This document shows, piece by piece, positions 22,336-25,152 of a stretch of DNA of 64,000 nucleotides; position 1 is the stretch's first letter, and the number at the start of each line of letters is the position of its first letter. The translations under genes and the position numbers were made by a program. The stretch is from Holophagaceae bacterium. Its GTDB lineage: Bacteria > Acidobacteriota > Holophagae > Holophagales > Holophagaceae. The DNA is taken from positions 22,959 through 86,958 of the forward strand of contig JANYAS010000156.1 in assembly GCA_025361205.1 (NCBI GenBank), read 5' to 3'. The notes under the pieces are model-generated. The model saw only the letters and a program-made list of their open reading frames with translations. It made no database searches and was not told the DNA's origin.

Positions 22336-22371
22336 TTAAACAAGAACACCCTAGATTTCTCTAAGGTGTTT
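22336..22371 (-). terminator. Terminator copy 1 (36-nt direct repeat), behind the tRNA-Glu fragment
   Basis: AACACC-TAGA / TCTA-GGTGTT forms a hairpin with a TTTC loop. On the minus strand it directly follows the tRNA-Glu CCA. The 36-nt block from TTAAACAAG to GGTGTTT is repeated without change at 22604-22639. Confidence 0.7.
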
Positions 22372-22373
22372 TT

Positions 22374-22419
22374 TGGTAGGGCTAACGGGATTTGAACCCG
22401 TGTTACCGCCGTGAAAGGG
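22374..22419 (-). pseudogene. 3' half of tRNA-Glu(TTC), truncated at the anticodon stem
   Basis: The minus strand carries an intact anticodon loop (CTTTCAC, anticodon TTC), 3' anticodon stem, variable loop, T-arm (ACGGG/CCCGT), acceptor 3' strand TAGCCCT, discriminator A and CCA. The 5' half is replaced by unrelated sequence: the expected partners of the GGCGG anticodon stem and an AGGGCTA acceptor strand are missing. A 3' half beginning at the anticodon loop is what tRNA-targeting tyrosine integrases leave behind as an attachment site. No integrase is in the window. Confidence 0.75.
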
Positions 22420-22603
22420 TCTTGTGTCGATTCAACTGCCTGTATGGGCCCCGCGACATCGGCGGCTCTGGTGATTCAACTCAAACCGGGGTGGCGCTGG
22501 TCCCAGAAAAATGGTTTTGTCCCGCCTTGACCCGTGCCGTCCCACACCGTTCATACAAGTCATATGCAATACGGGCGATCTTACATGGGCCAAAGTGACG
22601 GAA

Positions 22604-22639
22604 TTAAACAAGAACACCCTAGATTTCTCTAAGGTGTTT
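22604..22639 (-). terminator. Terminator copy 2 (36-nt direct repeat), behind tRNA-Val
   Basis: Identical 36-nt block to 22336-22371, forming the same AACACC...GGTGTT hairpin. It begins 1-2 nt after the CCA of tRNA-Val on the minus strand. The 232 bp between the two copies carry no recognisable gene apart from the tRNA-Glu fragment. Confidence 0.7.
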
Positions 22640-22640
22640 G

Positions 22641-22715
<75 letters not shown>

Positions 22716-22782
22716 GTGCGAAGCTCTATTCTAGCGGAACGGGGGCGGCTGTCGAGTGTCTGGGGGGGAGGGCCTGGTCTGG

Positions 22783-22914
22783 CTACGAATTCCCGAACCA
22801 GAGCAGGAGCGCAGCCAGGGTCACGGCCGTCAGCAGGAGCCAGTCCGGGGCGTAGGGATGCTCCAGGGCGAAACGGCTGAGGGGATGAGGGGCATGGTGG
22901 ACATGGAGGGCCAT
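22783..22914 (-). CDS. Small single-pass membrane protein, 43 aa (paralogue 1)
   Basis: Too short for the ORF track. A near-ideal AAAGGAG sits 6-7 nt before the ATG (AAAGGAGATTGCC-ATG). The peptide has a His/Pro-rich N-terminus ('MALHVHHAPHPLSRFALEHP') and one transmembrane helix ('DWLLLTAVTLAALLLWFG'), ending at TAG. A sister gene at 23107-23229 shares 'DWLL', a same-length helix, and an almost identical translation start region (AAAGGAG..TGCC-ATG-GC). Small helices of this kind often serve as subunits of respiratory oxidases or transporters, but no partner is visible, so the role is unknown. Confidence 0.65.
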   Translation of the reverse strand: MALHVHHAPHPLSRFALEHPYAPDWLLLTAVTLAALLLWFGNS

Positions 22915-23002
22915 GGCAATCTCCTTTCCTGGGCACCACAATCCACACCAAGGATGGGTCGCCGGGGTGGCTCACGCCGCTCTTTTCCGGGATCGGGATC
23001 CA

Positions 23003-23109
23003 GGCTAGGGGTCGATACGGAATAGCCTGGGTTGAATTCGCCATTCCGTTACGGCCGCTGATGCCGTTCTCGCGATTTCCGAGGCGGGTTGTTTTATTTC
23101 GACGGCCTA
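23003..23109 (-). repeat. Dispersed ~107-bp repeat, copy 2 (starts at the small-protein stop codon)
   Basis: Read on the minus strand it starts TAGGCCGTCGAAATAAAAC, where TAG is the stop of the 40-aa membrane protein. It matches copy 1 (6679-6785) along the whole length, with a few substitutions and a short gap near the distal end. The distal inverted-repeat arm is less perfect here (GATACGGAAT against ATTCCGTTACGGCC). Confidence 0.75.
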
Positions 23110-23229
23110 GTGGAGCATCGCCGTGGCGGGCCAGAAGAGCCAGGCGACAAGGGCGCCCACCAGGATCAGCAGCCAATCCAGCGCAGTGGATTGGCCGAGA
23201 TCAAGGTCGCGTCGGGAATGGGCGGCCAT
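23107..23229 (-). CDS. Small single-pass membrane protein, 40 aa (paralogue 2)
   Basis: Absent from the ORF track. AAAGGAGG lies ~6 nt before the ATG (AAAGGAGGCTGCC-ATG). The peptide has a polar N-terminus ('MAAHSRRDLDLGQSTAL'), a transmembrane helix ('DWLLILVGALVAWLFWPA'), and a short C-terminus ('TAMLH'). Similarity to the 43-aa protein upstream is limited to the DWLL motif, helix length and initiation region, but the tandem arrangement supports duplication. Its stop codon is the first triplet of the dispersed repeat. Function unknown. Confidence 0.65.
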   Translation of the reverse strand: MAAHSRRDLDLGQSTALDWLLILVGALVAWLFWPATAMLH

Positions 23230-23319
23230 GGCAGCCTCCTTTGGGGAGCCCCTGTCCACCTTTCAGCTTCGTCCGCGATGGACCTCCCGCTGTGAATTCT
23301 TAGAAAATTCGGCTCCCCG

Positions 23320-25152
23320 CTATTCCACGGTCACCGATTTCGCCAGGTTGCGGGGCTGGTCCACATCGCAGCCGCGCAGGACTGCGATGTGGTAGGCCAG
23401 CAGCTGCAGGGGGACGGCGTAGACGATGGGGGTGAGCCAGGGATGAACGGCGGGGAGCTCCAGCACATCCTCGGCGATGCTGGACAAGCCCGTGTCCCCC
23501 TCGGTGACCAGGGCCAGGATGCGGCCATCCCGGGCGGCGGCTTCCTGGAGGTTGCTGAGGGTCTTTTCCCGGTGGGCATCGCGGGGCATGAGGGCCACCA
23601 CGGGCAGGGTCTGGTCGATGAGGGCGATGGGGCCGTGTTTCATTTCGCCGGCCGGGTAACCCTCGGCGTGGATGTACGAAATTTCCTTCAGTTTCAGGGC
23701 GCCTTCCAGGGCGATGGGGTAGCAGGGGCCCCGGCCCAGGTACAGGAAATCTGTAGCGTCCTTCCAGCGGTGGGCCCACTGGATGATCTTCGGTTCGAGG
23801 GCATTGAGCCGTTCCAGGTGGGCCGGAAGCTCGCGCAGCCCCTGCAGCAGCTCTTCCTTGAGGACCGGGTCCACCGTGCCTTTGGCTTCGCCCAGTTTGA
23901 GGGCCAGCAGAGTGAGCACGGCCAGCTGGGTGGTGAAGGCCTTGGTGGAGGCCACCCCGATTTCCGGTCCGGCGTGGGTGAACAGCGTGGCCTCGCACTG
24001 CCGGGTGGCGGTGGAGCCCATGACGTTGCAGATGGCGAGGGTGCGTGCGCCCCGCGCGGCGGCTTCCTTCATGGCGGCCAGGGTGTCCGCGGTTTCGCCG
24101 CTCTGGGTGATGCCGATGATGAGGGTGCCGGGTTGGATCACCGGTTCGCGGTAACGGTACTCGCTGGCATAGTCCACTTCCACGGGCACCCGGCTCAACT
24201 GCTCGATGAGAAACTTGCCCACCAGGCCGGCGTGCCAGCTGGTGCCACAGGCCACGATATGGATGCGCGTCAGGTCCGCGAGCTCCTGCGCGGTGAAGGG
24301 CAGGTCCAGGGGAATGGCTTCACCGTCCAGGGGGAGCCGGTTCAGCAGCGTATTGGACAAGGCCTGGGGCTGCTCGAAGATTTCCTTCTGCATGAAGTGC
24401 TTGTAGCCCCGCTTTTCCACCGCCACGGGATCATAGGGGATGGTGTGGACCGTCCGCTGCACTTCGCTACCGTTCATGCGGAAGATTCGGGCGCCCTCGC
24501 GAGTGAGTTCGGCCAGGTCCCCGTCCTCCAGGAAGATCACGCGGCGGGTGTGGGGCAGGAGGGGCACCACATCCGAAGCCAGGAACGTCTCGCCCTCTCC
24601 CAGGCCCAGCACCATGGGGGGGCCGCTGCGGGCGGCCAGGATGCGGTTGGGGTCCTTGGCATGCAGGCAGGCCAGGGCGTAGATGCCCTTCATGCGGCCC
24701 ACGGCCTCGCGGAAGGCCTCGGAGAAGGTGCGTCCCCCCTTCATCAAGTGGGCCACCATGACGGGGAAGCATTCGGTGTCCGTCTCGGATTGGAAGGTTT
24801 CGCCAGCAGCCTTCAGCTCGGCACGCAGTTCGAGAAAATTCTCGAAGATGCCGTTGTGGACGGCCACCACCTGGCCATCGGCGCTGCAATGGGGGTGGGC
24901 ATTCTCCTCCGTGGGTCGACCATGGGTGGCCCAGCGGGTGTGGCCGATCCCCAGGGGACTGGGGTCCGAAAGGTCCACCTTGGCGGCCAGGTTCGCCAGC
25001 TTGCCTGAGGCGCGGATGATGCTGAACACCCCGGAGCCAGAGGCGAGAGCCACTCCCGCGCTGTCGTAGCCCCGGTACTCCAGGCTCTTCAGCCCATCCA
25101 CCAGGATGCCCACGGCACCCTGCTGTCCGATGTATCCGACGATTCCACACAT
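23320..25152 (-). CDS. glmS: Glutamine--fructose-6-phosphate aminotransferase (canonical)
   Basis: 610 aa from the ATG at 25152, so that Cys2 is exposed ('MCGIVGYIGQQGAV'); the ORF-track start eight codons earlier would bury it. Glutaminase domain: 'LEYRGYDSAGVAL', 'GHTRWATHGRPTEENAHPH', 'VHNGIFENFLELR'. Linker: 'YKHFMQKEIFEQP'. SIS domains: 'IVACGTSWHAGLV', 'GITQSGETADTLAAM', 'IGVASTKAFTTQL'. It ends 'PRNLAKSVTVE'. It provides glucosamine-6-phosphate for peptidoglycan and LPS. No glmS-ribozyme-like leader is recognisable in the ~150 bp upstream. It sits between the tRNA region and the second flagellar operon. Confidence 0.97.
   Translation of the reverse strand: MCGIVGYIGQQGAVGILVDGLKSLEYRGYDSAGVALASGSGVFSIIRASGKLANLAAKVDLSDPSPLGIGHTRWATHGRPTEENAHPHCSADGQVVAVHNGIFENFLELRAELKAAGETFQSETDTECFPVMVAHLMKGGRTFSEAFREAVGRMKGIYALACLHAKDPNRILAARSGPPMVLGLGEGETFLASDVVPLLPHTRRVIFLEDGDLAELTREGARIFRMNGSEVQRTVHTIPYDPVAVEKRGYKHFMQKEIFEQPQALSNTLLNRLPLDGEAIPLDLPFTAQELADLTRIHIVACGTSWHAGLVGKFLIEQLSRVPVEVDYASEYRYREPVIQPGTLIIGITQSGETADTLAAMKEAAARGARTLAICNVMGSTATRQCEATLFTHAGPEIGVASTKAFTTQLAVLTLLALKLGEAKGTVDPVLKEELLQGLRELPAHLERLNALEPKIIQWAHRWKDATDFLYLGRGPCYPIALEGALKLKEISYIHAEGYPAGEMKHGPIALIDQTLPVVALMPRDAHREKTLSNLQEAAARDGRILALVTEGDTGLSSIAEDVLELPAVHPWLTPIVYAVPLQLLAYHIAVLRGCDVDQPRNLAKSVTVE

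Follow-up and report, generated by a model that had tools for sequence, protein, structure and literature searches.

That small membrane proteins can form part of membrane complexes or regulate them is established for CydX and AcrZ (PMC4325964, PMC7267776), and an effect on the membrane has been reported for the Escherichia coli stress protein YohP (PMC12719787). The two short proteins described here, A and B, have points in common with each of these. Like the cytochrome bd small subunits CydX, CydY and CydZ (PMC4325964), they have about 30-50 aa, one helix, a strong ribosome-binding site and few invariant residues, but the genes for those subunits belong to cydAB operons, unlike the genes for A and B, and neither A nor B is recognised by any NCBIfam or Pfam model. 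AcrZ-type transporter regulators (PMC7267776) are also small single-helix proteins and bind a large membrane protein; for A and B we infer such a partner, and we found no sequence relation between them and AcrZ. YohP (PMC12719787) is likewise a tiny membrane protein without catalytic activity, although it has 27 aa compared with 40-43 aa for A and B, which moreover form a paralogous pair.

Within the window, that is, the whole 64,000-nucleotide stretch of DNA that was analysed, A and B both lie between glmS and tRNA-Val(GAC) and are read from the minus strand:

23320..25152, minus strand: glmS, upstream neighbour of A (open reading frame; start at the ATG of MCGIVGY)
23235..23242, minus strand: Shine-Dalgarno of A (AAAGGAGG), read from the sequence, GGAGG kept across genomes
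23107..23229, minus strand: CDS A, predicted single-helix membrane protein of 40 aa with its own Shine-Dalgarno, found in 37 Geothrix genomes (two more have divergent copies), pN<pS; product MAAHSRRDLDLGQSTALDWLLILVGALVAWLFWPATAMLH
22921..22927, minus strand: Shine-Dalgarno of B (AAAGGAG), read from the sequence, conserved
22783..22914, minus strand: CDS B, predicted single-helix membrane protein of 43 aa, conserved in 36 Geothrix genomes; product MALHVHHAPHPLSRFALEHPYAPDWLLLTAVTLAALLLWFGNS
22641..22715, minus strand: tRNA-Val(GAC), downstream neighbour of B, with its own sigma-70-type promoter at 22755..22728

The initiation regions of the two ORFs read AAAGGAGGCTGCC-ATG-GC and AAAGGAGATTGCC-ATG-GC, AAAGGAG and TGCCATGGC being present at both starts, and a strong Shine-Dalgarno precedes each. 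Both proteins contain DWLL followed by one hydrophobic helix. The near-identical initiation regions and the DWLL motif, to which the first-pass annotation had drawn attention, are thus plain in the sequence.

Could such short ORFs have arisen by chance? Geothrix is an iron-reducing genus of soils and sediments, and curated translated searches recovered A and/or B in 41 of 47 Geothrix genomes. A is read at the same place in 37 of the 47 and, as a divergent copy, in each of G011 and G020; B is read in 36 of the 47. The order glmS-A-B-tRNA-Val is kept wherever the contig allows, and glmS, about 90-95% identical in relatives, always adjoins A. Start codon, stop, Shine-Dalgarno and frame are all retained across the genus, and the changes in length (37-40 aa for A; 40-54 aa for B, with a few B orthologues >50 aa) are of whole codons, chiefly within the HxHxHP leader of B. 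In pairwise comparisons, which are not independent, pN<pS holds for 663/666 pairs in A and 596/630 in B; among unsaturated pairs the median dN/dS is 0.44 for A and 0.54 for B, and codon position 3 is the most variable. The conserved frame, start and Shine-Dalgarno, together with pN<pS, place the occurrence of these ORFs beyond chance, and it is near-certain from this signature that A and B are a real, coding protein pair. The earlier proposal had been staked on conservation of the frame among relatives, and this it passed.

The proteins have the general features of small bacterial membrane proteins of the single-pass kind, namely a length of up to about 50 aa and one hydrophobic helix. Their best 19-residue hydropathies are 2.07 (A) and 1.71 (B), and AlphaFold2 predicts helices at residues 3-38 of A and at residues 11-18 and 22-42 of B, with core pLDDT >90 in each. 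Together with the coding signature, these values bear out the description of two tandem single-helix proteins of 40-43 aa, and the observation made in the first-pass annotation is confirmed. The charge bias, small and opposite in sign in A and B, gives no clear membrane orientation, and the predicted single helix says little about function. Invariant residues are L21, L23, G25 and W33 in A, and F15, H19-P20, W25 and W39 in B, whose N-terminus is His-rich; we found no enzyme-like motif or conserved catalytic site among the conserved residues of either protein.

Profile comparison shows A and B to be homologous (30 columns aligned by hhalign, E 6e-9, a score of a kind that hydrophobic helices can inflate), and their alignment pairs DW with DW and the C-terminal Trp with Trp. 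Both proteins start with M-[AT]-x-H, a 44-nt direct repeat of 70% identity spans both starts, and the initiation region and upstream element that the two genes have in common agree with the profile homology. These similarities support an origin of A and B by tandem duplication, as had been suggested from the sequence at the outset.

How widely is the pair distributed? Among 93 genomes from the class, profile searches found clear matches in Geothrix only, bar one genome (G070). A and B occupy the same coordinates on a contig of that genome (G070:C246) and on one of G037 (G037:C53), the two genomes being assigned to different genera, and the G070 contig is probably misbinned. When 84,980 species genomes were scanned with the conserved core of B, the matches were confined to Geothrix and Holophagaceae bins, at least several of them being the same contigs as in the Geothrix genomes already counted. 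A few weak A-like matches occur in other genera (best E 1.7e-5), and neither the 93 class genomes nor the 84,980 species genomes yielded a convincing relative outside Geothrix. Pfam and NCBIfam gave no match at E values as high as 10, the one exception being an unrelated domain, below threshold, in a single B orthologue, and searches of Pfam, NCBIfam, PHROGs and PDB with A and B returned nothing but sub-threshold, chance-like hits. By these searches the family is an unnamed one, restricted to Geothrix, and A and B are a true small membrane protein pair with a predicted helix and no named family. An unnamed, validated pair is thereby added for this genus, one that shows tandem duplication and repeated loss and whose promoter-like elements point to a testable regulon.

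With respect to loss, A occurs without B in five genomes (G015, G032, G041, G011 and G020), B occurs without A only at contig ends (G026 and G033), and G019, G021, G022, G023 and G028 have neither. In the glmS tree, from which G020 is absent, the early branches have both genes and the A-only and empty genomes are nested, so that loss of B, or of both genes, in some lineages is the simpler reading. The order of losses is provisional because the rooting and several nodes are weakly supported, with low support near the genus root. De novo birth from the empty gap of 43-46 nt between glmS and the tRNA was considered and set aside, since the empty-gap genomes are nested inside clades bearing A and B and loss is more likely. 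In G019 the promoter element of A persists and the A ORF is gone.

Two elements upstream of the genes bear on their regulation:

23289..23310, minus strand: near-palindromic element upstream of A, then TCAC(A/G)GC (GAATTTTCTAAGAATTCACAGC), from the upstream alignment and a genome pattern search
22949..22978, minus strand: bipartite, promoter-like element in front of B, GGC-N17-CCCATCCTTG, an exact match with column conservation in 33 genomes

The pattern GG(C)-N17-CCCATNNT is conserved upstream of each gene, about 40 nt before the ATG and in a weaker version at A, and does not fit the sigma-70 consensus. In the 33 genomes the GG and C.AT..T columns of the B element are invariant or nearly so and the spacer has diverged. 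Aligned on CCCAT, G at -19, G at -2, C at +1, A/T at +3/+4 and T at +7 are invariant and G at -20 nearly so, an invariance that is partly by construction, the anchor pattern having been C[CG]AT..T. In front of A the same -10-like element is the best-scoring at the same distance before the ATG in 29/37 genomes and reaches p<0.05 against shuffles in only 21/37; in this genome the -10-like half is degenerate. The near-palindrome around TTCC-GGAA is an extra feature in front of A. A sigma-70-type promoter lies directly before tRNA-Val in 39/39 relatives, and in these 39 there is no other in the glmS-tRNA-Val interval on either strand. A search of eight genomes with GGC-N17-CCCATNNTTG found 18 sites, compared with none for the reversed pattern; four of the 18 precede orthologous YbaK/tRNA_edit genes, at exactly 27 nt to the ATG, a second pattern adds this genome's own copy (G000:C86:7258), and several of the remaining sites resemble coincidental matches or matches within coding sequence. 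We interpret GG(C)-N17-CCCATNNT as the putative promoter of an alternative sigma factor.

Several further observations were made upstream of other genes. In several Geothrix genomes a gene for a YbaK-like aminoacyl-tRNA deacylase carries the B-type GGC-N17-CCCATNNTTG element at an almost fixed spacing to the ATG (L124, L129, L131 and L133), and one such locus (L162) has just the -10-like half. The -10-like half was also considered as part of a sigma-32 promoter, a reading rejected because no CTTG-type -35 lies upstream of A or B; a sigma-32-like promoter with a -35 of this type (CTTGCGG...CCCCATCCT) precedes an Hsp20-like gene in G006 (L160). Six genomes have a 22-mer similar to the A element in front of a phosphate-binding-protein-like gene, and Pho-box-like repeats (GTTACA/GTCACA/GTAACA, spaced by 11 nt) precede such a gene at L178, L184, L185, L188, L189 and L173. 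A Pho-box reading of the A element itself, which matches well on the second half-repeat only, was left as weak.

What, then, might A and B do? We think it probable that they are paralogous, separately promoted, Geothrix-restricted single-pass membrane mini-proteins that modulate a membrane partner encoded elsewhere. They would be made from separate short transcripts, from dedicated promoters of non-sigma-70 consensus type, and each would put one Leu/Ala/Trp-rich helix into the inner membrane. Most likely as non-enzymatic helix partners, they would associate with one another and/or with a larger membrane complex whose genes lie elsewhere, and under some particular condition would thereby tune how stable or active that complex is. 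A may be the primary protein, able to act alone, and B an accessory and dispensable partner. We count in favor of this model that A occurs without B whereas B lacks A only at contig ends, as well as the coding signature, the A/B homology, the helices, the invariant residues, and the bipartite element at B, weaker at A and found also before the YbaK/tRNA_edit gene; the precedents of CydX, AcrZ and YohP count for it too. Counted against it are the lack of an adjacent partner gene, the small charge bias of opposite sign, the degenerate A element in this genome, and the weak support for the root and several nodes of the glmS tree. AcrZ is encoded away from its partner.

The first-pass annotation had likened the two proteins to accessory subunits of oxidases while remarking that no partner is nearby. 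The remark holds, in that A and B are always between glmS and tRNA-Val and no oxidase or other partner gene adjoins them, and the comparison itself now seems decidedly doubtful. A small respiratory oxidase subunit of the CydX or CcoQ type would be of similar size, with a single helix and Trp-rich helix ends, and both cytochrome bd and several enzymes of the COX1 family occur in Geothrix; however, A and B match neither CydX, CcoQ nor any other small-subunit family, and they have neither cydAB linkage nor co-occurrence with cydA. Genomes free of A and B (G021, G022, G028 and G019) still have COX1-family oxidases and cytochrome bd, several genomes bearing A and B, some of them incomplete, show no PF01654, and presence of A and B tracks neither PF00115 nor PF01654, so an oxidase link by phylogenetic profile was rejected. 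The interpretation given in the first-pass annotation is partly supported overall. Slightly less credible still is a type I toxin-antitoxin system in which A and B would be the hydrophobic toxins and an antisense RNA the antitoxin. In its favor, the genes are short, hydrophobic, tandem, lineage-restricted, intergenic and sometimes lost, but no sigma-70-type antisense promoter was found in the 39 relatives (a search confined to that promoter type), the strong, exposed Shine-Dalgarno lies near the upstream element rather than behind a long leader, Rfam returns for the region the tRNA and sub-threshold chance hits with no antitoxin, and most genomes keep both genes, at a single fixed chromosomal position.

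The main rival to a partner-modulating pair is that A and B are stress-induced proteins that alter the bilayer or the membrane potential without binding one partner, in the manner of YohP. The lack of a conserved catalytic site would suit it, as would dedicated non-sigma-70-type elements in common with the YbaK-like deacylase gene, but the invariant H19-P20 and Trp residues of B suggest a specific contact; we regard it as possible, if rather unlikely. A more speculative reading, to which we give somewhat less weight, would make A and B the membrane arm of a small Geothrix-specific stress regulon that is driven by an alternative sigma factor from GG(C)-N17-CCCATNNT and includes the YbaK-like deacylase, with the invariant His-Pro of B and its His-rich leader binding metal or haem at the membrane face. 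Least credible of all, and scarcely to be entertained, is that the ORFs are incidental to a regulatory RNA or DNA element which is the conserved entity: some stretches of the upstream DNA are indeed conserved, but so are frame, start, stop and Shine-Dalgarno, length changes are by whole codons, pN<pS, and apart from the tRNA there is no Rfam RNA in the region.

Downstream of tRNA-Val lies a degenerate tRNA-like sequence (22377-22451, minus strand) with an Rfam score under threshold, and a terminator hairpin is present twice (22336-22382 and 22604-22650, 89% identical), which suggests that 22336-22650 represents a duplicated, decayed tRNA-terminator unit.
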